Shown: one piece after another, positions 2,994 through 23,511 of the stretch
How the letters are laid out: every line of letters starts with the position of its first letter
How positions within the stretch are numbered: the stretch's first letter is position 1
IMG/VR virus record: IMGVR_UViG_3300036846_000055
Location: 1 to 23,511 of that record
Reading direction: 5' to 3' (one strand)
Source: a virus
DNA: 23,511 nt
Notes under the pieces: generated by a model
Told to the model about the DNA's origin: nothing
The model's database searches: none
The model's input: only the letters and a program-made list of their open reading frames with translations
Position numbers and translations under genes: made by a program

Positions 2994-3263
2994 TTACAGA
3001 TCAATTTCGATCTTCCAATGGGTTGGTGGCTGGAGTGCAACAAGCACGTCATGCATGCCTTGGATGGCTCCAGCATCCTCAATGTGCCAGCCTGTCCAAT
3101 CGTTCCCTCCGGCCGTGGTCACATGATACAACTTGTGGCCAGACACAGAGTCTGCCGTGCGTTTGAGAATCTCAAGCATCATGCTCTCATGCTTGGTCTC
3201 CACATCACCGTGACAAACGATCATGCGTGGCTTTGGGAGCAGCGTTTCAGGTACTGGCAACAT
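2994..3263 (-). CDS. Hypothetical protein (89 aa)
   Basis: Starts at ATG 3261-3263 with GGAGG 7 bases upstream, which sits inside the 3' end of the sulfotransferase gene (17-base overlap). The sequence has a compact mixed composition with a GNDWTGWHIED segment near residue 53 and a hydrophobic C-terminus ending KIEIDL. No catalytic motif or membrane segment is evident and I do not recognise the family. It is the last gene before the non-coding gap holding control site A, so it may close one transcription unit. Confidence 0.7.
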   Translation of the reverse strand: MLPVPETLLPKPRMIVCHGDVETKHESMMLEILKRTADSVSGHKLYHVTTAGGNDWTGWHIEDAGAIQGMHDVLVALQPPTHWKIEIDL

Positions 3264-3888
3264 CGAGTGGCCTCCAGGTTGATGGATCGATCAAGTCATA
3301 GTCGAATGAACGGCAGTCGTCTTCACACCAGATGCGATTGGCAATCTCTACCTCACGCTGGTCATACAGCGATGCCCACGTTGGGTGCTTGCCGATGTTG
3401 CTATGATGATCGTATGTTGGGTACAGTCCATACAGGACACCGAAGTTCTGCCAGTTGTCCCACATGTGCTCCATCATCAGCGTGCGGTCTGGCTTCGCAA
3501 TCTCCGCACACTGCGTGAGCGACTTGGTCCACATGTGTGGAGCACGTCCTTGGATCCAGAGCCGGTGTTCCACCAACTCGCGTTGAGCTTCAAACCATGG
3601 TAGGAACTGACTGAAGTTCTGGTGCATGACGTAGCGATGGCCCCACTGAGACTTGCTGTTACCGATGTAGCCCAGGTACCACCACACTGAAACCAGTCTG
3701 CTGTAAGGGTTTCGCACCAGCATGTAACGTGTCTCTGGCGCAGACATCCAGACTGGTGGCGTCAACTTGTGCCGCGGCTTCACCCACTGCACCTCTGCTG
3801 GGTATTTCCGCATGGCTGCTTCCCAGCTGAAGGTGCCGGTCTTGGTTGGTGTGAAGATGATGAAGTCATGGATCTCACTTACCAACAT
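3247..3888 (-). CDS. Sulfotransferase-fold protein
   Basis: A 213-residue protein with both PAPS-binding hallmarks of sulfotransferases: the 5'-phosphosulfate loop PTKTGTFS at residues 14-21 after a hydrophobic strand (FIIFT), and the 3'-phosphate-binding motif RNPYSRLVS at 59-67. The C-terminal WCEDDCRSFDYD resembles the terminal acidic-aromatic segment of carbohydrate sulfotransferases. The family transfers sulfate from PAPS to a hydroxyl or amine, often on sugars; the substrate here cannot be told. There is no signal peptide, so it should act in the cytoplasm. ATG 3888 shares one base with the previous stop (TGATG); an ATG at 3924 would overlap the upstream gene by 37 bases. Uncommon cargo for a tailed phage. 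Confidence 0.8.
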   Translation of the reverse strand: MLVSEIHDFIIFTPTKTGTFSWEAAMRKYPAEVQWVKPRHKLTPPVWMSAPETRYMLVRNPYSRLVSVWWYLGYIGNSKSQWGHRYVMHQNFSQFLPWFEAQRELVEHRLWIQGRAPHMWTKSLTQCAEIAKPDRTLMMEHMWDNWQNFGVLYGLYPTYDHHSNIGKHPTWASLYDQREVEIANRIWCEDDCRSFDYDLIDPSTWRPLDVAST

Positions 3889-4085
3889 CAGTCCTCGTCC
3901 CCAGCAAAGATTGCATCCCAGCATGGGCTGCAGATGCCCGTCATCATCTGCTCACGCTTAGCAGCACTCAATTCTGGCAAGGCGCCCTGGATGTGCACGC
4001 CTTGGCGCCATTTCTTCAGGCCCTCATCATTGACCGCAAATGTGTCGGGCTTGCCACACTCTGGGCAATGCGTCTGAACTAACAC
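3888..4085 (-). CDS. Small zinc-ribbon-like protein (65 aa)
   Basis: Starts at GTG 4083-4085 with GGAGG 4 bases upstream; the start lies inside the stop region of the 57-residue gene before it (7-base overlap). Two Cys-x2-Cys pairs, CPEC near residue 7 and CSPC near residue 52, frame a helical middle (LKKWRQG ... LSAAKREQMMTGI). This is a one-zinc ribbon layout seen in small conserved phage proteins of unknown role. Its position between the helicase-side small genes and the sulfotransferase gives no firm function. Confidence 0.78.
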   Translation of the reverse strand: MLVQTHCPECGKPDTFAVNDEGLKKWRQGVHIQGALPELSAAKREQMMTGICSPCWDAIFAGDED

Positions 4086-10670: not shown

Positions 10671-10727
10671 GTTCGATATCGTCTGTATGTTCGATTCAGG
10701 GCCTGTGCCAGCCTTGTGTTCGATTCT

Positions 10728-10927
10728 GTGATGTCGATCATGAGCCAGTACTTGCCTGTTTGCCTATCGGTGCAGTAGGAAATGTCGGGGTTCGATGTTC
10801 GATCAAGTCCGTCACATCGGCTCACGATGTCGATCATGGGCGCTCGGGGGTTGATCGACACGGCTCACGATGTCGATCACACAAGTCGATCATCCCTGCC
10901 TGTGATGTCGATCATGTGTGTCGATCA
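10728..10927. repeat. Cluster of ATGTCGATCA repeats (operator- or iteron-like)
   Basis: The core ATGTCGATCA is at 10731-10740, 10827-10836, 10870-10879 and 10905-10914. Near copies are at 10884-10892 (AGTCGATCA) and 10919-10927 (TGTCGATCA), and one reversed copy at 10851-10860 (TTGATCGACA). Two copies extend to a perfect 19-bp direct repeat CGGCTCACGATGTCGATCA (10818-10836 and 10861-10879, period 43), and two to a perfect 17-bp repeat CTGTGATGTCGATCATG (10726-10742 and 10900-10916). Spacing is irregular. This is the strongest repeat signal in the window; function is not shown by sequence alone. Confidence 0.7.
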
Positions 10928-11000
10928 AGGGGACCGTCCAGCCGGAGCGTCAGGCCAATGCCGATCATCACCCTCTGGCATCGCTGTCAGCGAAATGGGG

Positions 11001-11104: not shown

Positions 11105-11623
11105 TCACGCCACGCAGGTGTGAATCGTGAACGTCTCACTCTTGATCTTCAGCGTCAGGTTGCGCAGATGAAAGCCGGCAGGGCACGTCATTGATTGACC
11201 TGGTGAGCCTCTCTCACCACGAGCACCACGCTGCCCAGTCTTGCCTCTTGGTCCCATGGGGCCCTGCAGCCCAGCTGGTCCACGATCACCAGCTTGTCCT
11301 GACGCTCCAGCCCGTCCTGCTCTGCCAGCTGGTCCAGTGGTGCCATTCTTGCCTTGCTGTCCAGACTTGCCGTGCGGGCCTGAGGCACCGGCAGAACCTG
11401 GCGCACCATGGCTGCCACTTGGGCCAGCAGCACCAACCGGACCTTGTGAGCCAATGGGACCACGCGAACCTGGTGGCCCCTGTGGTCCTGGTGGCCCTGG
11501 ACCACTAGCGTTGGATGCACCAGCGATGAGCAAGATGATCGTGATGACAATGAAGGCGCCAGACAAGATGAACGCGATCGTTGGTGATCGAAAGACACGT
11601 CGCACCAGCTCAGTCGGCCCCAT
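11105..11623 (-). CDS. Membrane-anchored collagen-like protein (172 aa)
   Basis: The N-terminus is basic (LVRRVFRS) and is followed by one strong membrane segment at about residues 14-36 (TIAFILSGAFIVITIILLIA). Residues 41-142 are an almost unbroken Gly-X-Y collagen-like stretch, and the last 29 residues form a small domain with two cysteines (Cys147, Cys170) that may pair. Expected topology: short N-terminus inside, collagen stalk and cap outside. It overlaps the holin-like gene by 14 bases and is the last late gene. I chose ATG 11623 (GGGA 6 bases upstream); ATG 11635 is also possible. Role unknown: lysis control, envelope disruption or surface modification are all open. Confidence 0.75.
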   Translation of the reverse strand: MGPTELVRRVFRSPTIAFILSGAFIVITIILLIAGASNASGPGPPGPQGPPGSRGPIGSQGPVGAAGPSGSHGAPGSAGASGPHGKSGQQGKNGTTGPAGRAGRAGASGQAGDRGPAGLQGPMGPRGKTGQRGARGERGSPGQSMTCPAGFHLRNLTLKIKSETFTIHTCVA

Positions 11624-11843
11624 TGTCGATCCCATGCTGTGCTAGCTTGAGTCGCAGTGCATACACCTGACGCTCGCAAGCGATGCGAGCTTCACGCTCT
11701 TGGGACAGCATGATCGACAGTGAGTTCACCTCACCAGTCGATGCCTTACGCTCCTTGTCCCGCACGGATCTGATGGCGAGCATGATTCCACCGGCAGCCG
11801 TGATGATTGCGGCCAGTGCCGTGAAGATGGCCGCAAGTTCCAC
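11610..11843 (-). CDS. Holin-like small membrane protein (77 aa)
   Basis: Starts at GTG 11841-11843 with GGAGG 8 bases upstream. One hydrophobic segment (about residues 2-25, ELAAIFTALAAIITAAGGIM) is followed by a charged, coiled-coil-like tail (RDKERKASTGEV ... QEREARIACERQVYAL). Size, topology and position 27 bases after the endolysin gene fit a small one-segment holin or a holin-associated membrane protein. Sequence alone cannot prove pore formation. The frame can be extended to GTG 11858 but that start precedes the ribosome binding site. Confidence 0.68.
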   Translation of the reverse strand: MELAAIFTALAAIITAAGGIMLAIRSVRDKERKASTGEVNSLSIMLSQEREARIACERQVYALRLKLAQHGIDNGAD

Positions 11844-11870: not shown

Positions 11871-12827
11871 TCAGTTTGGCCAATGGATGACAGACCACAC
11901 CGCGTTGACGATGTCCACAGCTACCGGGGATTGCACCCGCACCGCCAGGCCACGGTCAGGGTTGGAGTAACCAACGCGGGTGTCCACGACCTCCAGGTTG
12001 CCGCCGCTGCCTTGACACTCCAGCCAGCCGGAGCCGCCCACTGTGTCGCCGCTCTTGATGTCCACAAAGGCAAGTCCAGCGAGGAAAGTCTGGCCCTCAG
12101 GCAACCCCTTCACCACGCACGAGAACGTGGACACATAACTGGCTCCATCTGCGCCACCCGTGTTGATGTAGCGCCCAGCCTCATCGCCCTCAGGCTTGCC
12201 TGTGCCAAAGAACACGTTGCCGGTGTCCCAGTCCTGCTGGTCCCACTTGATTTCCCACGGCGTGTTGGCCTGGTTGACACGCAACGGGTCGATGCGCTTG
12301 GCCTGGAACCGTTTGGGCATGTCGCCGTCCTCCTGTCCGTCGGTGCTTCCACCGCTGCTGCTCTTGCCTGTGATGACGTCAGCCACTTTCTGCAACGCGT
12401 CATTGTTCTCTGAGTACTGCCGCAAGATCGACAAGTGAATGTGCCAGAGGTGACTGTCGTCGCTGGTCACCGCATAGTTGCCCCAGTAGTCCCAGCCACA
12501 GACCGTGCGGCCATCAGTAGAGCCGTAGAACTCACGCACCACATCCATGCGCGAATCGTTCTTGGCGTTGAGCAAGCGCTTGCTGGCCGTGTAGTGATCC
12601 TCTGCCTTGTTCCAGCTGATGTCCAGCCCGCATGCGGCCTCACCGTTGCCTTTCTTATCCGGTGGTGTCTGCACGCTGTAGTCGTTGCCACCAACGTAGT
12701 TGCGGCCGCGATGGTAGCCATAGGTGTGGGCTTGATCGCCAATGATGCCGCCCATCAACGCTGATGGCATACGATCATTGACCGTGTTGAACAGGTTGGT
12801 GATGGCTTGTGGCGCAAACTCAACCAT
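11871..12827 (-). CDS. Endolysin with M15-type peptidase domain and C-terminal binding domain
   Basis: A 318-residue lysin. The N-terminal domain (about 1-150) has a metal-peptidase pattern of the M15 kind: HTYGYH at 34-39, an Asp in CGLDIS (Asp69) and the terminal WHIH at 128-131, expected to cut peptidoglycan cross-links. A Ser/Gly-rich linker (about 155-168) leads to a 149-residue C-terminal domain, probably for wall binding. An in-frame ATG at 12320 with AGGAGG 8 bases upstream sits exactly at the domain border. ATG 12827 is chosen because the 50-codon gene before it ends there; the frame extends to 12950 but that part overlaps the small gene and looks non-coding. Holin-like gene follows. 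Confidence 0.75.
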   Translation of the reverse strand: MVEFAPQAITNLFNTVNDRMPSALMGGIIGDQAHTYGYHRGRNYVGGNDYSVQTPPDKKGNGEAACGLDISWNKAEDHYTASKRLLNAKNDSRMDVVREFYGSTDGRTVCGWDYWGNYAVTSDDSHLWHIHLSILRQYSENNDALQKVADVITGKSSSGGSTDGQEDGDMPKRFQAKRIDPLRVNQANTPWEIKWDQQDWDTGNVFFGTGKPEGDEAGRYINTGGADGASYVSTFSCVVKGLPEGQTFLAGLAFVDIKSGDTVGGSGWLECQGSGGNLEVVDTRVGYSNPDRGLAVRVQSPVAVDIVNAVWSVIHWPN

Positions 12828-12972
12828 CGCGATGCCGCCCCCAACGTCGTTTCTTGTGTTCGTCATCTTCAGGCTTGTGCTCTTCAAGCCACCAGTCTGG
12901 TGGCTGAAGTCGTTCACGATCACCAGTGTCACGCGTCTCGCGTGGCTCAAGCCCCGGCTCTTGCTCTGTCAT
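12820..12972 (-). CDS. Small charged protein with WW motif (50 aa)
   Basis: Read directly from the minus strand: ATG 12970-12972 has AAGGGA about 7 bases upstream and lies 10 bases after the stop of the previous gene. The frame runs 50 codons and ends TGA at 12820-12822, overlapping the endolysin start. The product is very hydrophilic, alternating acidic and basic (MTEQEPGLEPRETRD, then PPDWWLEEHKPEDDEHKKRR). No family recognised. Short proteins of this type occur near phage tail/lysis borders. It competes with the longer endolysin frame for the same bases; I prefer this reading because of the ribosome binding site. Confidence 0.6.
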   Translation of the reverse strand: MTEQEPGLEPRETRDTGDRERLQPPDWWLEEHKPEDDEHKKRRWGRHRDG

Positions 12973-13265: not shown

Positions 13266-13766
13266 TCAGGTCTTGATAATGAAGTTGACGCCAAGCCAAG
13301 GCGGCAAACCGTTGCTTGGACCATCTGTATTGCCGCTGACATTGACGGCATTGGTGCGAGCTACGGTCGGAGTGGTGACAGTTCCGGCAGTGCCCCTGAA
13401 GTTCGCATTCCATGAAGGGACTGTGATGATGTTCATATCCATCAGCTGATCGGTGGTGTTGATACGTAACTGCGCGGCCAGGCTGGATGAGCCGTGCGTG
13501 TGCGTGCTCGCACCACCAGACGAGCCAGGTGGTTGGCCACGCGGCATAGTGCCGTTGTTGAATTGTGGTAGGTTGAACGTTGTGCTGCCATCGCCTGGGC
13601 CATATGCTGTTCCAAGTGCCGCAAACAAATTCGCAAACGTTGTGCGGGAAACTGCCGAGCCATCGCACATGAGATAGCCTGTTGGCGCTGATGATCCACC
13701 AAACATCTCAATAACGCCAGCCGGAGTCGCAGTGACGGTCGATGATGGACCATAGATGGTGGGCAT
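13266..13766 (-). CDS. Tail-collar domain fibre protein (166 aa)
   Basis: Matches the phage tail-collar / microcystin-dependent-protein fold (PF07484). The N-terminal part has GYLMCDGSAVSRTTFANLF (about residues 30-48) and then GDGSTTFNLPQF (about 58-69). A His-x-His (THTHG) follows near residue 88, and the protein ends PPWLGVNFIIKT as in this family, whose His pairs can bind metal in trimeric fibre tips. ATG 13764-13766 follows the previous stop by 4 bases. It is likely a fibre tip or receptor-binding part. Confidence 0.85.
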   Translation of the reverse strand: MPTIYGPSSTVTATPAGVIEMFGGSSAPTGYLMCDGSAVSRTTFANLFAALGTAYGPGDGSTTFNLPQFNNGTMPRGQPPGSSGGASTHTHGSSSLAAQLRINTTDQLMDMNIITVPSWNANFRGTAGTVTTPTVARTNAVNVSGNTDGPSNGLPPWLGVNFIIKT

Positions 13767-13770
13767 TCAC

Positions 13771-14652
13771 TCAACCAATCCGTACAAACTGCATTCGATG
13801 GCCCGACGGTATCGGAGACAGTGCAAGCGCAGCACCGCTGCTTTGCCAGACACGGCAGTCAATGACATCACCAGCCGTAGCACGGTAAATGTGCTGACAT
13901 TGCACTGCGGAGTTGCCACCCGAGCCGACATCCATACGGTTAGCCTCAGTGTTGTTGATGAAGACAGCGGTGACTCGTCGCCCGCTAGTATTGGAGACCC
14001 AGCCCATCTGGAAATTGATCAGCAGCAGCGCGCCATCGTTGGCGGCATTGACGGATAACGCACCAGGCGCAGTTAGACCTAGGCTGCCAATAGGAGTCCC
14101 GCCTGGGGTAGCCCAAGCACCGAACGGCCCGTTCCACCCAAGGTTGGTGATGCTGGTGACTTGCTGCCCGGTGTGTTCCTGAAAGATGTTTGCCGGCCAT
14201 GGCGATGGCGTCATACTGCCAAGGCTGTAGCCAGACCTGATCCGCAGGTTGGTGCCATCACCCTCAAGAGTGCAAGCAGCCCATTGGCCAACCATCAGCA
14301 AGTTAGGGTCACCATCAACCGTGCCAGACGATGGCACCACAGTCAATGTGTTAGTTGAGCTGTCCACACGCTTGACTACATAGGTGTTGTTGCTGGTGAT
14401 TGGTGCCGTGAGTGTGATGTTGCCACCACTACAGTCTACAAGCGCGATGTCACCATTGTTGAGCGTCGCGTTGGTTGTAATAGACCTGATCGTTTCACCA
14501 GTGCCACCACCTGACGGCCATGGATTCCAGGCAGAGCCGTCAGACACATACAACGTCTTGGTGGCCGTGTTCCAGTACGTGTCGCCAGCGTTGCCAACTG
14601 CTGGTGCCGCAGCGTACGGTGCTGCGTTCGTGATTCCAAAGCTGCGCGGCAT
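13771..14652 (-). CDS. Tail fibre / minor tail protein (293 aa)
   Basis: The N-terminus holds a GDTYWNTATKTLYVSDGSAW module (about residues 23-42) of the kind found repeatedly in phage fibres. A beta-rich middle follows (NATLNNGDIALVDCSGGNITLTAP), and the C-terminal 120 residues resemble a C1q/TNF-like head domain (GALLLINFQMGWVSNTSGRR ... MQFVRIG). This layout fits a trimeric adsorption protein. ATG 14650-14652 shares one base with the stop of the nuclease gene. Family assignment is by pattern; receptor unknown. Confidence 0.75.
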   Translation of the reverse strand: MPRSFGITNAAPYAAAPAVGNAGDTYWNTATKTLYVSDGSAWNPWPSGGGTGETIRSITTNATLNNGDIALVDCSGGNITLTAPITSNNTYVVKRVDSSTNTLTVVPSSGTVDGDPNLLMVGQWAACTLEGDGTNLRIRSGYSLGSMTPSPWPANIFQEHTGQQVTSITNLGWNGPFGAWATPGGTPIGSLGLTAPGALSVNAANDGALLLINFQMGWVSNTSGRRVTAVFINNTEANRMDVGSGGNSAVQCQHIYRATAGDVIDCRVWQSSGAALALSPIPSGHRMQFVRIG

Positions 14653-15359
14653 CAGAACCTCGCTGTGTAGACGGCGCGATGATCGGTGGCCCTGGTGAAG
14701 ATGCGCTGATAGCTGCTCAATGATCGTTCTGGCACAGCAAACGCGGCATCGATCCGTGGAAGTCCAGATGAGCGACGTAGCCTGGTGTGGTTGACAATGC
14801 CAGGATGCTTCTGGTTCCAGTCACCAGCGATGACGATATGTGCCAATGGATGCGCGTTGATGTAGGCTTCCTCGATAGCCACATCAGCTGCTCGCCAGCG
14901 TCCCTGGTGCGGGTGCTTAGCCGTGCTGGCAGTGTTGTGAACAGCGATCAGCCTGACGTATCGATGGGTGACTCGATCGATGAGTCTGACGATGGGGATG
15001 CGCCAGCGATGTCCGTTGAAGTACGGCACCACGAGCGAGGAATGAGCAGCAAGGTGATATGCGGATCTTCGCCAGAACACGACGTTGGGTCCATTGTGGG
15101 CCAAGCTGAATGCTCCACCGGTGTCGGCCAGGAATGCTCGCCGTTGACTGCGTTCGCACTCAACCAGCGTACCCAGGTCAGCGTGCTGTCGCTCGATGAT
15201 GTGGGCAATGCTCGCCATCCTGATGATTGCGCTGGCTGTCCCGGTGTGACTGGCACCCTGCACGTTGGCCCAGAACAGAGTGCGGGTGATCGGTGCATCC
15301 GCGTTGGCCGGTGGGACAAGTAACATCCACGTCAACGTGAGTGCCCAGCAGCGTCGCAT
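14652..15359 (-). CDS. Secreted DNase I-fold (endonuclease/exonuclease/phosphatase family) protein
   Basis: Residues 1-20 form a classical signal peptide: RR, a hydrophobic core (WALTLTWMLLV) and an ANA cleavage site. The rest has the full set of EEP catalytic motifs: Asn32 (WANVQG), Glu68 (TLVECE), His141 (IAVHN), Asp180-x-Asn182 (AGDWN), Asp204 (PRIDAAF) and Asp226-His227 (TDHRAV). EEP enzymes cut DNA, RNA or phosphate esters with Mg2+. ATG 15359 follows the previous stop by one base; the TTG at 15368 would add three residues before the signal peptide. A secreted nuclease inside a tail-fibre operon is unusual; it may act outside the cell or in the envelope. Confidence 0.82.
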   Translation of the reverse strand: MRRCWALTLTWMLLVPPANADAPITRTLFWANVQGASHTGTASAIIRMASIAHIIERQHADLGTLVECERSQRRAFLADTGGAFSLAHNGPNVVFWRRSAYHLAAHSSLVVPYFNGHRWRIPIVRLIDRVTHRYVRLIAVHNTASTAKHPHQGRWRAADVAIEEAYINAHPLAHIVIAGDWNQKHPGIVNHTRLRRSSGLPRIDAAFAVPERSLSSYQRIFTRATDHRAVYTARF

Positions 15360-15360
15360 G

Positions 15361-16695
15361 TCAGCCAACGATCACAACTCTGTAGCCTGCGCCCAGGTTG
15401 GGGTTGTATCTGATCGTGGCCGTGGTAGCTGATGTCGCATCCCAGTCCACCTCCACTGCTGTGTAAGGTGATGCGCCGTTCAACACCGTGAGCTGGATGT
15501 CTCGTGTGTTCAAGTTATGGGTGACGACTTCAGGTGACGCCGTGCCGGCCAACGCTGCTGCGAACTTCTTGGGCATGCCAGCAATGGCACTGTTGACGAA
15601 CGCTTGCGTGGCGATCACAGCAGTGTTGACAGCGATGGAGTCAGCAGCGACCGTGAGTGTGGTGTCAGCAGCGACAGCATCGATGGTATTGCCGGTCTTG
15701 GTCAGGCCGGCACCAGCGATGACTTGCCCTGCGCCGCTGAATTGAACCCATGTGATGGCCGTGGTATCAAGCGTTCCACCTTGATCGCTTGTGCAGACCC
15801 AGCCCGTGTCAGCGTTGACGGTGCCCTGCTCAACAAAGGTGAACGCTGAAGGCACAAGCGTCCATTGGTTCATATCGCCAGAACGTTGCCATGTGCCGTT
15901 TGCACCACTGCCCAGCGTGCCGACCGTGTAAATGCCGTTTTGAGCTGGCGCTGTTTGATCCTTTACAAGCACCCGGTCGTTGACTGCGAGCGCAACACCA
16001 TCTAGCGTGTTTGGCGTGCCACCAGCTAGCGTGATGTTGGCACCGACAGTTGCGGCGTGGACAGACTGCTTGGCGTCCAGGCCTTGTGCAACACTGTCAG
16101 CATAGCCCTTGGTTGCAGCATCGTTCGACAACGTTGGCGTCATGAGTCCCGTGATCTTGTGGGTGTTCATGGCGACATCAGTTGTCGTTGGATGTGCGCT
16201 CGCAAGTGCACCAAGATCGAATGCTGTGGCTGTGTCAGCAACAACGACAGTGCCGTCGAGAATCTTGGCTGAAGTCACTGTGCCATTTGCGATGACTGGG
16301 TTCGGATATGTGCTGCCTGCTAGATCGCCACCCGCAGCACCGTTTGGTGGCAAGGCAGTTGGGATCACACCAGCAGCGATGTCAACAGCCTGAACGGTGC
16401 CATCCGCGATCTTCGCACTGGTGACAGCGTTGGGCGCAATGACTGGCGCCGTTGCCGTGCCAGCAAGATCACCGGCTAGCTGAATGGTACCAAGAGCGCT
16501 TGCTGTCGCAGGTGGTGTTGAGCCGCTCATCGCGCTCTGCCACGTGGTGCCGTCATACCACTTGAGGATGTTGTTGGTGGAGTCAAACCACAGCAAACCC
16601 TTTGTGGGACTCGATGGCGCGGCACCCAAGTTCTGAACTACAGCGTTGCGCAGCTCATTCTTGCCAAGATCGACTGCACCATAGAACACTGGCAT
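15361..16695 (-). CDS. Tail fibre protein (444 aa)
   Basis: ATG 16693-16695 has AAGGGA 5 bases upstream. The N-terminus begins with MPVFYGAVDLGKNELRNA and then a LLWFDSTNNILKWYDGTTW module. The middle has repeated short beta units around NG-T-V-T-S-A-K-I (two copies, VTSAKIADGTV and VTSAKILDGTV), typical of fibre shafts. The C-terminal segment EVVTHNLNTRDIQLTVL to VVIVG matches the terminal modules of the collagen-like fibre upstream. This points to a long trimeric fibre that carries the same end domain as its neighbour. Receptor specificity is unknown. Confidence 0.82.
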   Translation of the reverse strand: MPVFYGAVDLGKNELRNAVVQNLGAAPSSPTKGLLWFDSTNNILKWYDGTTWQSAMSGSTPPATASALGTIQLAGDLAGTATAPVIAPNAVTSAKIADGTVQAVDIAAGVIPTALPPNGAAGGDLAGSTYPNPVIANGTVTSAKILDGTVVVADTATAFDLGALASAHPTTTDVAMNTHKITGLMTPTLSNDAATKGYADSVAQGLDAKQSVHAATVGANITLAGGTPNTLDGVALAVNDRVLVKDQTAPAQNGIYTVGTLGSGANGTWQRSGDMNQWTLVPSAFTFVEQGTVNADTGWVCTSDQGGTLDTTAITWVQFSGAGQVIAGAGLTKTGNTIDAVAADTTLTVAADSIAVNTAVIATQAFVNSAIAGMPKKFAAALAGTASPEVVTHNLNTRDIQLTVLNGASPYTAVEVDWDATSATTATIRYNPNLGAGYRVVIVG

Positions 16696-16705
16696 GGCTG
16701 TCCCT

Positions 16706-18667
16706 TCAGCTCAGGTATGCCTCGCCACCAACAGACGCTGAGAACGTCAGTGTCACGTTATTGTCATCTGGATAGTGAACGTTGCCTGGGAAGATCTCAT
16801 CAAACGTGGAGTCCACGACCGTGACACCTGGTCTGAAGCCAAGGTTATGCGGCACGCTCCAGGTCGTTGCCGCAGCGGTCTGGTAGTGTCTGTAGTAGCT
16901 AGCAGCGGCAGCCCCTGATGGCGGGATACCAGCACCGACCACGACATTGACATCATTGGGTGGCTTGGCGTTGAAGCTCACCCAAAGATTGTTCGCATCG
17001 ACAGCTGCAATCTCACCTTGGATGAGCCCATTGGTGACAGCATCCCATAGCTGCACAAGCGGGTGCGGGCTGTTGAGGTTGTGGGTGATCGTGTAGATGG
17101 TGCCTGCGTTCGGTGCCAAAAGCCTTTGAACATAGGATGATCCTGCTGGCCCAGGTGCGCCTGGAGCACCGTCAGCACCAGCTGGGCCCTGGATTGTACC
17201 AAGATCGAACCACTGCGAGCCATCCCAGTAGTACAGATGGCCGGTATCTTGCGTCACCCAGCCCTGTCCCGCATCCGCTGGGCCCAATGGCGGCAGTTGG
17301 CCAAACGTTGGCACCGTGCCATCGATCGTGACGCCTGCACCTGGCGGACCTGTTGGGCCTTCAGGCCCAGTCGGACCTGCTGGACCAGGATCACCAGTGT
17401 TGCCTTGTGGACCATCAGCGCCAGGTGGGCCTTGAACCGGACCACAGTCAACCCACGCTGTTCCACTCCATGACCACAGATGCCCTGTGTCACTGGTGAT
17501 CCAGCCCTTGCCAGCATCGGCAGCCGTCAAGCCTGTCGGCAGGTTGGCGTACGTGGCAACAGTGCCTATGATGGTGATGCCTTGGCCCATATCACCTTGT
17601 GGGCCAGGTGGTCCTGTTGGGCCTACATCGCCTTGTGGCCCCGCAGCACCAGTTTGTCCCGGATCACCCTGGGTGCCTTGAGCACCGGTCGCACCTGCTG
17701 GTCCTTGTGGTCCTGAGGCACCAGTTGGTCCTTGTGATCCTGTGGAACCTGTTGGTCCTGGCGGGCCAGTTGCACCATCAGTACCAGGCGGACCTTGTGG
17801 ACCAGCTGGACCCTCAGGACCAGCCGGTCCGATTTGACCACCACCAGAAACCATTGTCCATTGAGTGTCATAGTCATTGTCCGATGTCTTGACGAGACTC
17901 TCACCAGCGGTGCCACCTGCAGGGACACCAACGCCATCTGCACCCTGTGGACCTGCTGGGCCAGGACTCCCATTGATGCCAGCTGGACCAGTTTGACCTT
18001 GTGCACCGGGTGGCCCAGCGCTGCCCTGTGGTCCCGCAGGACCAGTCGAGCCAGCTGGACCTTGCGAACCTGTTGGCCCCTGGCTCCCAGTGGAACCAGT
18101 GGGACCGGCTGGACCCAATGGCCCTTGCACACCGCCGACTGGCCATACACCAAGGTTGACGTTTGATGGCGTCAAGTTCGCGCCGGTTGTCTGCCACAGT
18201 GAGATGGCATACAGCCTGCCACCATAGAGATAAACCGGGAAGATCACGGTGTCTAAATTGGTCGGCGCTGTGACGTTGCTTGAGACGTCAATCATGGCAT
18301 AGTTGGTGCCTGGCGACGTACCATGTTCAAGCAGTGTCGCTGCTCTGCGACCGCCAGATCCACCAGGCCATAAGGTTCGCAATGCTACCAGATACCAGCC
18401 ATCAACTTCTGGTGAAACAAAGTTGCCTGAAACTGCAACCTGCCCAACCGTGATGGTGTCCCAGTTTGTTACCTCCGTCCACAAACCTGACTTGATCGCC
18501 GGACATGACTGCGTCCAGAACACCGTGGGCGAGTTGGCTGGATCACTCGGATCAGCCGTGGCAGCAGTGCTTGCCGTGCGCTCCAACACGCCGATGCGGC
18601 GATCGAATGCCTTGAGCGCATCGATGGGGCTGCTTGGAAACTTGTCCAGGTAGTTGCTGCTGGTCAT
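16706..18667 (-). CDS. Collagen-like tail fibre protein (653 aa)
   Basis: Layout: N-terminal helix with heptad pattern (about 14-32), a C1q/TNF-like beta domain (about 45-178), collagen Gly-X-Y stretches at 181-246, 281-362 and shorter ones at 412-444 and 493-509. These are interrupted by two copies of a 47-residue module (about 363-410 and 445-492; GTV-x-T/P-x2 ... DTGHLW/YxW-x-G-x-x-W). The end has two related beta modules (about 521-580 and 600-653; ITHNL / VPHNLG). Gly-X-Y stretches in phage fibres form triple helices. ATG 18665-18667 with AGGGTGA upstream. Confidence 0.88.
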
Positions 18668-18673
18668 CTCTGA

Positions 18674-19804
18674 TCACCCTGCTGGCACGAACGCTGGCTT
18701 GACAACGGTCATTGTGACCATGTCTGCTCGTGTAGAATCATCGTTGATGGCGATGGTCATGTCTGTGATGCGGTACTGATCGTTTATGTTGATGCGGCCC
18801 CTCTTCACCACAAACTTGAGGATGTCACCCACCCAGGCATCGGTGCTGCTCTGCCAAGCACCAGGCTGCAGCTCACAATCATACGTTGGCACAACAGATT
18901 GCGCCCTCACAGCCAAGTTGTTGGCCGCAGTCGTGAGATGAGTCTTGTCAACGATGGATGGATTGCTCATCGCCAGGCCCATGCGACCTTCAGGCTTGCT
19001 GGCGATCCCAGACGCGTCAGCCTGAACAGGCGCCAACTTGACATCGCCATTGTACACGATTGAGTTGGCATACCCGCTGGTATCATATGACCTTGTGACC
19101 TTGCGTACCGTGCTGCCATACTCAAGCACATAGTGGCTGTTCATGTTGTAGTACATGGACGGAACAGCTCTGAGTGTCAGCCCCATCGTGCTATTTGGGA
19201 ACACCTGCCAGCCAAAGCCGGTCATGGTGCCGAGCGCTTCCTTGATCGATGTGCCTGGCACAAAGTCGCAGTTAGTTTTGCTGGTCGGCATCAGCGACGT
19301 GTCGATGGTGAACGTTGGATGGATGCCTGACTGCCCGTTGATACAGTAGGTGAACAGATCATGGATGATCTGGGCCTGAGTCTGGTTCACCCAGTGCCAC
19401 TTGTGACTGGGCTGAAGAATCTGGCGGGCAAGCCACTCACGATAGTCGAACACGTTGAGCTGAACCGTGTAAGTGTCAGCCTCGCCATCAAGTGTGTCTG
19501 TAGCACTGCCGATGCGACCACGGTACAACAACGCGCCATTGCGGAAGATCCAGCAGTCGGTGATCAGCTCTGTGATGAAGCTAAGGTCAGGGTCGCTGCC
19601 ATCCATGCTAAACGTCAGCAAGGCTGAGTCGTCAACATGGAAGTTCATGTTGCGTTGTCTGGCTGTCGTCAGCTCATACGTTGGGCCAACGTTGTTGTTG
19701 CCGATGACGATCTGCCAGTGAGTCTTGGGCAGCACAACGATGGGCGGTGGCCTGATCGCAAGTGGATCAACTCCCAACGCACCAAGCAATGCCAGTTCAG
19801 TCAT
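18674..19804 (-). CDS. Gp37-like tail hub / minor tail protein (376 aa)
   Basis: Resembles the Siphovirus ReqiPepy6 Gp37-like family of tail-hub proteins. The N-terminal third has NMNFHVDDSALLTFSMDG, then GALLYRGRIGSATDTLDGEADTYTVQLNVFDYREWL (about 91-126), as in hub domains that join the tail tube to fibres. The middle (TSIKEALGTMTGFGWQVF) and C-terminus (QYRITDMTIAIN ... VTMTVVKPAF) fit the family. ATG 19804 shares one base with the preceding stop. It sits just after the minor tail gene and before the fibres, as expected for a hub. Confidence 0.78.
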   Translation of the reverse strand: MTELALLGALGVDPLAIRPPPIVVLPKTHWQIVIGNNNVGPTYELTTARQRNMNFHVDDSALLTFSMDGSDPDLSFITELITDCWIFRNGALLYRGRIGSATDTLDGEADTYTVQLNVFDYREWLARQILQPSHKWHWVNQTQAQIIHDLFTYCINGQSGIHPTFTIDTSLMPTSKTNCDFVPGTSIKEALGTMTGFGWQVFPNSTMGLTLRAVPSMYYNMNSHYVLEYGSTVRKVTRSYDTSGYANSIVYNGDVKLAPVQADASGIASKPEGRMGLAMSNPSIVDKTHLTTAANNLAVRAQSVVPTYDCELQPGAWQSSTDAWVGDILKFVVKRGRININDQYRITDMTIAINDDSTRADMVTMTVVKPAFVPAG

Positions 19805-20760
19805 CAGCCCACAATCTCAGCCGTCAGTTGCTTGCGTGATGATGCGCTGCCAACAAGAACACCGTTGCCTGCCTGCGTTGCCTGGCCGAAGACCCCAAGC
19901 GTGTGGGTGCCAACAGACAGTGTCATATCCTGCTCGACCACGATGCTTGAGTTGTTGTTACCACCAGCGCCAACATAGGCCTGTCCAGCAGCGAGTGCCG
20001 TCGATGAGATGGTTGGGTTGCCAGTGCCACCATCACGAATCCTAGCCACAATGCGGCCGGCCACGCTATTTTGCGCGACACCAATGAATCTGAGCCTGTA
20101 GACAACCGTGGCATCTGTGACAGTTAGCGTCATGAACGCGATAGTGGTGTCACGTGCCTCTGTCGTGCTGAAGTTGTTCGAGTTAGTTGTGGACTCAACC
20201 TTCCAGTACTTGCTGCTCTTGGGCTGCGTCGGCAAGGCTGCCAATGATCGCAAGTCTGTGATATCAGCAGCCAAGATGTTGGCCTGGGCTGGTCTCCGCA
20301 AGCAAGCTGCGAGTGAGATGCTGTCCTTTGGCAGTGCGGGAACAGATGGTGAGGCTGCTTCCGTGCCGCTCAAGCACTGTACCTGCCACTCGTAGATGTG
20401 GTCGCCTAAGATCTGACCGTCATGAGCCGTGAGGCAGATGAGGTCATACCTATTGTTGGCTGATGGTGGGCCAGGTGGCTGGATCGTCTTGACAGCAGGG
20501 TTTCTGCAGATGTAGCTATGCTGTTCAGCTGCAGACGTGCCGGCGACGCACGCCGTGCCAACGGCGATGTTCAAGATCGCACTGCTGTTGCTGGAAATCT
20601 TCCAGTCACCAGTGGCGAGTATCCCAGCGCCAGGGAAGATCGCAGTTGCCATCATGCGATAGTCAGCAGCACCATAGCAGATCTGCGGTGGGTCAGCGAC
20701 GTCAGTCGTTGGCTGCATGTAGAGCGGCGTCACATCACCGTGGACAACTGGTGCAGTCAT
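19804..20760 (-). CDS. Minor tail protein (318 aa)
   Basis: Starts at ATG 20758-20760 (one-base overlap with the previous stop) with AGGTGG about 7 bases upstream; a GTG at 20769 is less likely. Layout: N-terminal baseplate-like segment (MTAPVVHGDVTPLYMQPT), then GDWKISSNSSAILNIAVGTACVAGT (about 50-75), a linker with PPGPPSANNRYDLICLTAHD, and a C-terminal beta domain of about 140 residues (VVYRLRFIGV, TLSVGTHTLGVFGQA) that looks like a carbohydrate- or C1q-like module. Its position between Dit-like and hub genes fits a baseplate upper protein. Confidence 0.75.
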   Translation of the reverse strand: MTAPVVHGDVTPLYMQPTTDVADPPQICYGAADYRMMATAIFPGAGILATGDWKISSNSSAILNIAVGTACVAGTSAAEQHSYICRNPAVKTIQPPGPPSANNRYDLICLTAHDGQILGDHIYEWQVQCLSGTEAASPSVPALPKDSISLAACLRRPAQANILAADITDLRSLAALPTQPKSSKYWKVESTTNSNNFSTTEARDTTIAFMTLTVTDATVVYRLRFIGVAQNSVAGRIVARIRDGGTGNPTISSTALAAGQAYVGAGGNNNSSIVVEQDMTLSVGTHTLGVFGQATQAGNGVLVGSASSRKQLTAEIVG

Positions 20761-21659
20761 CACGACCACCTATCTCGCCAGTAGAACGTACACACACCTT
20801 GCTTGTCGTCTGAGAGGTACACGAACTCGTTGTCACCAGCTTCAAGCGTCACCCATGACGACTTGGTGAAGTCCCACCAGGCAAGTCTATTGATCGGTGG
20901 CGTTGCCGGCTCTTGCACTGTCTTGTACAGGGTGTCGATGGCAACTTGCTGACCAGCGCTGAGTGTCACGTTGAGATAGATGCCCAGGCCAGTCTCTGGA
21001 TCGTACACGCGTGGGTTCTTGGCCGGACCAGTGAAGACAATGATCGGATACGTCACCACCGTGCCATCGTTGGTGATGATGCTTGCTCCACCGAAACTGC
21101 CGGCAGCAAAGTAGACACATGATGATCCTGGGAAGCAGAAGCCATTGTGATCGATACATCTGCCACCGGTGCCGCCTGCGATCGAGCAGGCCTGGATGTT
21201 GAGCGTGCTCGACTCCATCACACCGCTTGGGACTTTCCATGTCACTGACGCAACGATCATTGGTCCATATTGACGATCAAGCGGTGACGTAATGCCATCA
21301 CACCTCAAAACCATGCGACGCTCTTCATCCCAGCCATCCTCTTGCACGAACAGCCATGGCCGTCTGTTTGGCGCACACAGCCGTCGCACTTTCTCCCATG
21401 ACAGAGCTGGGAACGGCTCATCCAACGTCGGCTTGATGTAGCCATTCCACGTCACAGTCTTGTCGGCATGAAACTCAGTCAGATCAGTCGTGCCGTTGGC
21501 ATCCGGAATGTTGCTTTGCACGACACGCGGTGTTGCGAAGCCAAGATCGATGGTGCTGGTGAAGTACGGTGAGTTACACCAGTCTGGATCACCGTCATCC
21601 AGCTCGATCCAGACACTCTCGCCCGTGTTCTCATCGATCAACCGTGCAGTGGTGGCCAT
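20760..21659 (-). CDS. Distal tail (Dit-like) protein (299 aa)
   Basis: ATG 21657-21659 shares one base with the tape-measure stop; a GTG three bases upstream is an alternative. The N-terminal half has VWIELDDGDPDW, VVQSNIPDANGTTDLTEFHADKTVTWNGYIKP (about 46-77) and WEKVRRLCAPNRRPWLFVQ, typical of distal tail proteins. The second half (PIIVFTGPAKNPRVYDPETGLGIYLNVTL, about 206-234) matches the C-terminal beta domain that follows in the same family. Its place right after the tape measure gene is the standard site for Dit. Confidence 0.8.
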   Translation of the reverse strand: MATTARLIDENTGESVWIELDDGDPDWCNSPYFTSTIDLGFATPRVVQSNIPDANGTTDLTEFHADKTVTWNGYIKPTLDEPFPALSWEKVRRLCAPNRRPWLFVQEDGWDEERRMVLRCDGITSPLDRQYGPMIVASVTWKVPSGVMESSTLNIQACSIAGGTGGRCIDHNGFCFPGSSCVYFAAGSFGGASIITNDGTVVTYPIIVFTGPAKNPRVYDPETGLGIYLNVTLSAGQQVAIDTLYKTVQEPATPPINRLAWWDFTKSSWVTLEAGDNEFVYLSDDKQGVCTFYWRDRWS

Positions 21660-23511
21660 CACATCCTGCTTGCCCGCAAGGCAGATTCAAGGCTCTGAAC
21701 AACGTGAGCCGGACTCTGCTTGCCAAAGTCGATGTTGGCGTATGGGAACAAGTTGATGACTCGCGTTGAGCTGACAGCACCGGCTGCGCCACCACCAGTC
21801 ACACCAGCAGCATTGGCATTCAGCGGCACTCTGAGAGCACCATGCACACCACGCATAGCAGCGTCAACCTTGCCAAGATTAGTCGTGATGCCTCCGGCCA
21901 AACCTTCAAGCAGGTTCATGCCTATCTCATGAAACACCTTGGATGGTGATCCTATGTGGAAGACACTCTTGACTCCGCTGACGACACTGCTGGCAGCGTT
22001 CTTGGCTGAGCTTACAACACCCTTCACAGCAGCAATGAGTCCACTAGCAAGTCCACCCAAGATGTCCTTGCCTACTTGATACAGCCATGTTGCTGCTCCC
22101 TTGAAGGCACCCGTCACAGCACTCTTGGCTTTGCTCATCTGTCCGCTGATTTTCGTCAAGAGGCTGCTCAGACCACTACTGATGCCACGCCAGATCGCAG
22201 CGCCAACATCTCCAATCGCCCGCACTGCCTTGGCAGGCAAGGCACCAAACCAGCCCACTGCGTTGCTGACCCAGGTAACCACCTTGCTCTTCATGTTCGC
22301 CAAGCCAGCCGTGATGCCACCCCAGATCTGTGAGCCCAAGTTGCCAATGGCACGCATGACCTTTGCGGGGAAGGTGGTGAAGAAGTCAACCACGCCACCA
22401 ATGAAGTCCATGATCTTGGACTTCAGCGTGGCCAGGCCATCCGTGATGTTGGTCCAGATCTTGCTACCAAGATTGCCGATGGCCTTCAGTACCCTGACTG
22501 GGAACTTGATGTAGATGTCGATCCACAGATCGATGGCATCCTTGAACTTGCCTTTGATCCATGTGATGCCTGCTGAGATGGCTGACCATAGAGTGCGACC
22601 AATGTTGCCTACAGCGCTGACGATCTGGCCAGGCAGAGCCGTGAAGAAGGCAACAATCTGCTTCCAGTGTGTGATGATGAGCAGCGGGATGCCGATCATC
22701 GGCAACACAGCAGCCAAGATCAGCAATCCATACCGCTTGATGATGCCAACTACAACCTGCCACACGACTTCAAAGCCATGGACAAAGTCTGTGAAGGCGT
22801 TTTTGACTGCATTGAAGGCATCCAGGAACCACTTCTTGATGTCACGTGCGATCATGTTGATCAGATCATGAAATGGCTTGATCTTGGTGTAGGCAAGGTA
22901 GAACGCTATGCCCAGCGCTGCAACAGCAGCAACGATCAAGAGAATGGGGCCAAGCGCGACATCCTCGGACACACCAAGGGCATCGTTGAGAGCAGTCCAG
23001 ATCTTGGTCCCTGCTTGAACGATCTTGCTTTCTTTGTCCCACAAGGCAAGCGCCTTCACACCCTTGCCCATCTTTTGGATGACACCAGTCTCCATGACTG
23101 CGCCGAAGCCCATGAGTGCTGGGCCAGCAACCTGTAGCACCGGGCCAACTTTCTGGCCAACCGTGCCAACAAAGTCTTCAATCTTGGCTTTGACTTCCTT
23201 CATTCTGCCAGAGAATGTGTCTGCGGCAGCAGCTGCTTGGCCCTTCAACTTGGCAGCCAGCAGCGCGACACCAGCCTCACCTGCCTTGGTGCCTGTCGTC
23301 AAGGTCTTGAGATCACCCTTGAGCGTGGTTGCCTTCTGGCTGTTGACACTCATCGCGTGCGACAGCTCAGCACGCTTGGTGGCATCGTCCTGAAGTTCTT
23401 TCTTGAGCTTCGCCTGCTCATTCTTGTCGGTGGTTGAAGCCAGCGCCTCACGGATGTGAGCGTCACGCAACGACAGTGCAGCGCTAGCGTTCTTGGCTGT
23501 CTGCTGAGCTT
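21659..23511 (-). CDS. Tape measure protein, 5' part beyond the window
   Basis: The frame is open to the right edge (no start needed at the internal TTG 23470), so at least 617 residues are present. Seen in order: a charged coiled-coil region, hydrophobic segments (ALGPILLIVAAVAALGIAFYLAY and YGLLILAAVLPMIGIPLLII), three tandem 44-residue repeats at 22196-22591 (each with a Leu/Ile-Trp start and PxxVxxAIGN-like end), and a C-terminal FHIGSPSKVFHEIG motif common in tape measure proteins. It sets tail length and helps DNA passage. Position just before Dit supports the call. Confidence 0.92.
   Translation of the reverse strand, partial: AQQTAKNASAALSLRDAHIREALASTTDKNEQAKLKKELQDDATKRAELSHAMSVNSQKATTLKGDLKTLTTGTKAGEAGVALLAAKLKGQAAAAADTFSGRMKEVKAKIEDFVGTVGQKVGPVLQVAGPALMGFGAVMETGVIQKMGKGVKALALWDKESKIVQAGTKIWTALNDALGVSEDVALGPILLIVAAVAALGIAFYLAYTKIKPFHDLINMIARDIKKWFLDAFNAVKNAFTDFVHGFEVVWQVVVGIIKRYGLLILAAVLPMIGIPLLIITHWKQIVAFFTALPGQIVSAVGNIGRTLWSAISAGITWIKGKFKDAIDLWIDIYIKFPVRVLKAIGNLGSKIWTNITDGLATLKSKIMDFIGGVVDFFTTFPAKVMRAIGNLGSQIWGGITAGLANMKSKVVTWVSNAVGWFGALPAKAVRAIGDVGAAIWRGISSGLSSLLTKISGQMSKAKSAVTGAFKGAATWLYQVGKDILGGLASGLIAAVKGVVSSAKNAASSVVSGVKSVFHIGSPSKVFHEIGMNLLEGLAGGITTNLGKVDAAMRGVHGALRVPLNANAAGVTGGGAAGAVSSTRVINLFPYANIDFGKQSPAHVVQSLESALRASRM
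22196..22591 (-). repeat. Three tandem 132-bp repeats in the tape measure gene
   Basis: Each unit encodes 44 residues. Compare the unit ends FPVRVLKAIGNLGSK, FPAKVMRAIGNLGSQ and LPAKAVRAIGDVGAA, each followed by a Trp-containing turn. Half units flank the array on both sides (LPGQIVSAVGNIGRT before it). Such repeats let tape length change by unit gain or loss. Confidence 0.75.

Follow-up and report, generated by a model that had tools for sequence, protein, structure and literature searches.

The DNases of Streptococcus pyogenes prophages adopt a beta-beta-alpha metal nuclease fold and are carried by temperate phages. For enzymes of the EEP (DNase I-like) family, an intact N/E/H/D-N/D/D-H set implies metal-dependent cleavage of phosphoesters. 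The S. pyogenes prophage enzymes, Spd-3 and others, are extracellular (PMC3629212) and provide a precedent for an exported phage nuclease; the preliminary description of the DNA studied here, according to which nucleases of phages do not usually leave the cell, overlooked them. According to a 2022 review, phages have not been reported to degrade extracellular DNA actively (PMC9145820), and an EEP gene within a tail-fibre operon was described nowhere in the open-licence literature searched.

The DNA analysed here, a 23,511-base virus record from IMG/VR, is a single metagenomic contig, referred to in its entirety as the window, and carries such a gene. The window EEP resembles the S. pyogenes prophage DNases in being phage-borne and an accessory gene and, should its putative signal peptide function, in being exported. 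It differs from them by its family, by its location in a fibre operon, by the lack of any integrase found, and by sibling proteins without a signal peptide. With DNase I, exonuclease III, YbhP and YafD, the phage EEP has the Pfam family and the catalytic set in common, but no specific relation. The capsid matches identify the window phage as an actinophage: the major capsid protein of a sibling phage matches 725 phages, nearly all from Mycobacterium, Gordonia, Microbacterium, Streptomyces and Arthrobacter. The distal tail protein (Dit) of the window matches Arthrobacter and Streptomyces phages.

The EEP gene and its operon

The gene is an intact open reading frame of 235 aa on the minus strand, reading from 15359 to 14652, and the plus-strand translation at 14652-15359 is interrupted by stops in the corresponding frame. 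The sole family matched by the protein is Pfam PF03372 Exo_endo_phos (33.2 bits, E = 5.8e-8, residues 31-227; 14679..15269, minus strand), for which the curated cut-off of 24.5 bits is exceeded by all three phage homologues (33.2, 33.4 and 30.0 bits). All eight positions of the catalytic set (N32, E67, H141, D180, N182, D204, D226 and H227) are intact in the window protein, which bears out the initial claim that every EEP catalytic motif is present. Together with the significant family match, the conservation of these residues in all relatives (they are invariant in the two phage siblings and in four plasmid domains) leaves the family assignment standing. We obtained no meaningful match for the protein in PHROGs, NCBIfam or PADLOC and no relevant chain in sequence searches of the PDB, and two AlphaFold runs with 3-sequence alignments returned pLDDT values of 33.0 and 32.3, too low for a usable model. 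Overall, these data support the prediction that the window gene encodes an EEP-family enzyme in a tail-fibre operon.

The genes in this region, on the minus strand throughout, encode in order a tape measure protein whose start is at the contig edge (21659..23470; phrog_58), Dit (20760..21662; phrog_33), a tail-associated protein with a weak Prophage_tail match below the cut-off (18674..19804), a collagen-like tail fibre (16706..18667; phrog_819 and others), fibre A, the EEP, fibre B and a tail collar-like protein (13266..13766; phrog_9116 and phrog_19618). Fibre A (444 aa, 15361..16695), directly upstream of the EEP, matches PHROG head decoration and tail fiber families and is conserved in the related contigs L002, L003, L009 and L016, and fibre B (293 aa, 13771..14652), directly downstream, has a weak match to a virion structural protein. 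The EEP is thus confirmed to lie between the two fibre genes, and the architecture in the preliminary description, which gave no strand, holds except for the downstream spacing. The 1-base spacings given for both sides of the gene in the preliminary description hold upstream, where a single base separates fibre A from the EEP (TGA-C-ATG), and not downstream, where the EEP stop overlaps the fibre B start by 1 base (TGATG). No promoter-like site belonging to the EEP itself was seen in the region, and this, along with the tight gene spacing, suggests that the gene is co-expressed with the fibre genes and should be made late with them. A frameshift fusion between fibre A and the EEP was considered: in L002 and L003, the EEP frame stays open for ~30 codons ahead of the gene, but in the window a stop closes it within a few codons, and the fusion was rejected.

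Downstream of the fibres lies a lysis-module ORF (11871..12950, minus strand) that has no Pfam or PHROG match, is conserved in L002, L003 and L009, and may encode the endolysin; two tandem copies of its homologue are present in L009 (17936-19662). The same module includes a protein (11105-11635, minus strand) in which a hydrophobic segment at the N-terminus leads into collagen-like GXX repeats and which adjoins an 82-aa holin-like ORF, and similar pairs are found in L008 and L009. Upstream of the lysis module, at 10726-10931, where there are no obvious genes, we noted 3-4 copies of TGTCGATCATG, partly inside 35-nt repeats, which are possible operator or origin repeats. Two other loci, both on the minus strand, deserve mention: a Sak4-like annealing protein encoded beside a PD-(D/E)XK exonuclease (602-2651), and a 225-aa protein (3247-3924) with a weak, sub-threshold match to sulfotransferases (PF03567, E = 0.013), unusual in a phage.

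Distribution of the gene among related phages

Two sibling phages, L002 and L003, were found by means of the tail-associated protein, over which they are 80-82% identical to the window, plus one distant contig. As had been proposed at the outset, we inspected the same place in these relatives, and an EEP gene is present at the identical location in both siblings (L002:12429-13127 and L003:14434-15132), with 58% and 56% identity, respectively, to the window protein over 226 residues. L002 and L003 come from the same sample and all three EEP-bearing phages are metagenomic contigs, representing few independent lineages. Using Dit and the tail-associated protein as wider queries brought in further related contigs, and searches with PF03372 and the EEP alignment detected the gene in 3 of the 12 related records, several of which are fragments: the window, L002 and L003 only. 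In L016 and L009, the site is empty, fibre A being followed directly by fibre B. The L016 junction reads GGGCTGA-TCATC-ATGCCTCGC, the latter being the fibre B start, and in L002 the same GGGCTGA-TCATC is followed by ATGCCTAGC, the EEP start, with fibre B located after the EEP. The comparison of these two junctions identifies the EEP as a cassette that was inserted where fibre B begins.

Identity between the two siblings reaches 95% for the EEP compared to 69% for fibre A and 31% for fibre B, indicating that the EEP has been kept while the neighbouring fibres changed. The EEP dN/dS for this pair is 0.16. When the window is compared with the siblings, synonymous change has reached saturation and the nonsynonymous differences amount to 0.28-0.29 per site. 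Present in the siblings and missing from an otherwise equivalent site in two relatives, the EEP gene is, on these alignments, an optional cassette under purifying selection. Its restriction to 3 of 12 related contigs could also be read as that of a degenerate passenger gene without function, which we regard as hardly credible given the retention of all catalytic residues, the low dN/dS, and the intact frames in three phages even though the window copy is only 56-58% identical to its siblings.

Outside this group, viral contigs searched for EEP relatives returned only the two siblings, a tblastn search of 50,697 records of cultured phages returned no EEP relative, and pattern scans of genome contigs with the EEP and Dit alignments gave no confirmed relatives among the matches listed. 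The search for integrases covered the tyrosine type (PF00589), which was found in none of the 12 related records, most of them fragments; lysogenic conversion was rejected within this scope.

The N-terminus and export

The window protein begins with MRRCWALTLTWMLLVPPANA followed by DAPITRTLFWANV. A rule-based scan, requiring a positive n-region, an uncharged hydrophobic core and an AXA-like site, identified MRRCWALTLTWMLLVPPANA (codons 1-20; 15300..15359, minus strand) as a putative Sec signal peptide, with a core mean hydropathy of 2.11 and a cleavage predicted after residue 20, at the ANA site that precedes DA. The background of this rule is such that it is passed by 4.7% of 1034 mechanical ORFs and by 6.4% of shuffles of the window N-terminus. 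Both sibling EEPs, which start with MPSLLIAIMLFWANV, fail it. They begin ~13 residues ahead of the catalytic Asn, and no earlier in-frame ATG, GTG or TTG start is available to them. Judging from homologous EEP proteins, LFWANV would form the first strand and bear the catalytic Asn, leaving nothing cleavable at the sibling N-terminus; the siblings could thus not have a signal peptide without losing the strand of the catalytic Asn.

The clean signal peptide with an ANA cleavage at residue 20 announced in the preliminary description therefore survives in part: the window sequence conforms to a simple rule with a background of ~5%, and both siblings do not. Likewise, an exported protein is plausible for the window phage and does not extend to the siblings at the same locus. 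As neither sibling has a signal peptide, export does not appear to be a family trait, and is plausible at best as specific to the lineage of the window; for the same reason, a function common to the three phages could not depend on Sec export. It is these sibling N-termini that speak most strongly against a model of simple secretion.

They also feed a serious rival explanation, in which the EEP is a cytoplasmic late phage nuclease or phosphatase involved in host nucleic-acid turnover or repair, the signal-like N-terminus of the window being a chance hydrophobic extension before the first strand, as the 5% of random ORFs that pass the rule would allow. We rate this explanation as somewhat unlikely, because n-, h- and c-regions follow one another in the proper order at the N-terminus of the window protein, together with the ANA site, because the nearest homologues found are predicted to be secreted (see below), and because a late nonspecific DNase would be expected to endanger packaged genomes. 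The possible export in the window phage, together with an optional presence among related phages that fits a competition gene, is also what one would expect from superinfection exclusion, in which a nuclease at the envelope would cut the DNA of rival phages as it enters. The position in a late fibre operon is, however, late for exclusion, no integrase was found in the 12 records and there is no sign of lysogeny, PADLOC gave no match, and the siblings have no signal peptide, making this role very improbable.

Plasmid homologues and proposed role

A first lead to more distant homologues came from a weak plasmid match (E = 0.2). Plasmid pCHL of Nocardioides QY071 encodes, near a TraM-recognition gene, a protein of 1039 aa whose N-terminus is hydrophobic and which combines two EEP domains with an M23 peptidase, and pNOCA01 (Nocardioides JS614) and pTC1 (Paenarthrobacter aurescens TC1) encode proteins that contain two EEPs, an SLT transglycosylase and a CHAP-like region, the latter scoring below the Pfam cut-off. 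Plasmid typing classified pNOCA01 and pTC1 as conjugative, and Pimelobacter simplex pA-N39 and pCHL as non-mobilizable. The pairing of two different EEPs with SLT and CHAP-like regions or with M23, in plasmid proteins encoded beside conjugation genes, was observed at L030:3854-6520, L031:4890-7529 and L029:1453-4572.

The profile built from the three phage EEPs scored 43, 34 and 31 bits against one of the two plasmid domains, termed type A, and 2-13 bits against the second (type B). The same profile gave ~1 bit or less with E. coli ybhP and yafD, no reported match with xthA, and values <0 with shuffles. In an independent comparison by hhalign, the phage and type-A profiles gave 97.8%, versus <4% for xthA, ybhP, yafD and non-EEP controls, these controls being single sequences, which makes the comparison somewhat unequal. 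Phage and type-A EEPs have in common the motifs NxxGA(S/G)H, QAxAF/L, YxGG...P(L/I)xx(L/F) and HNxA. From these scores, the phage EEP is closer to the plasmid type-A EEPs than to the other EEPs compared; type A represents its nearest homologues among the sequences searched, and chromosomal EEP homologues could be nearer.

Type-A EEPs are single domains of 880-1040 aa proteins that contain a second EEP and M23, or SLT and CHAP-like regions, and their genes adjoin TraM/TraG, whereas the phage EEP is a stand-alone 235-aa gene in a fibre operon, with no peptidoglycan-hydrolase fusion and no conjugation neighbours. From their hydrophobic N-termini and wall-hydrolase domains, the plasmid proteins are predicted to be extracellular. 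The nearest homologues found being domains of predicted secreted wall-hydrolase proteins, an extracellular or envelope action of the phage EEP gains some indirect support. Since a late nonspecific DNase in the cytoplasm would be risky to the phage, and since the plasmid relatives look secreted and wall-associated, we favour an action outside the cytoplasm.

We thus tentatively propose, with a confidence that stays somewhat below even, that the gene encodes an accessory EEP-fold metal-dependent phosphodiesterase, co-translated with the fibres and acting outside the cytoplasm, most likely on DNA. From its sequence and context, the enzyme is probably a DNase, made late and working at the surface of the host or once cells have lysed. 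Its gene, placed between two genes for receptor fibres, would be co-translated with them late in infection, and the enzyme would belong to a sub-branch of EEPs also represented, as a domain, among the secreted wall hydrolases of conjugative plasmids from actinobacteria. In the window phage, the enzyme would leave the cytoplasm by its lineage-specific Sec signal peptide; in the siblings, it may act as part of the virion or once lysis has set it free. It would cut phosphodiester polymers, most likely the DNA that surrounds the host surface or is present in the debris of lysis, and this cutting would help the progeny reach or leave cells.

The location between receptor fibres, and the maintenance of the EEP while the flanking fibres vary, would equally suit a tail-borne or surface-acting phosphodiesterase that attacks a lipid or phosphodiester polymer in the envelope of actinobacteria as the phage adsorbs or leaves. 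The fusion of the plasmid homologues to peptidoglycan hydrolases, from which the domain family would work alongside wall cutting, points in the same direction. We nevertheless find this quite unlikely, as the 235 aa contain no tail-attachment domain and no lipid- or teichoic-acid-specific EEP was matched in NCBIfam or the PDB.

A role of EEPs in DNA transfer seems undescribed in the literature searched. It is conceivable, if rather unlikely, that a dedicated envelope EEP is common to actinophages and the conjugative plasmids of actinobacteria and helps DNA or virions across the surface, its target being either extracellular DNA or a phosphodiester polymer of the envelope; the phage would deploy it with its receptor fibres and, in one lineage, by secretion. 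As a conserved EEP co-translated with receptor fibres and kin to plasmid wall-hydrolase domains, the enzyme described here is a small, directly testable candidate for an enzyme with which phages degrade extracellular DNA. Should its target be the envelope, it would instead point to an unrecognised step in the crossing of the actinobacterial surface, common to phages and plasmids.
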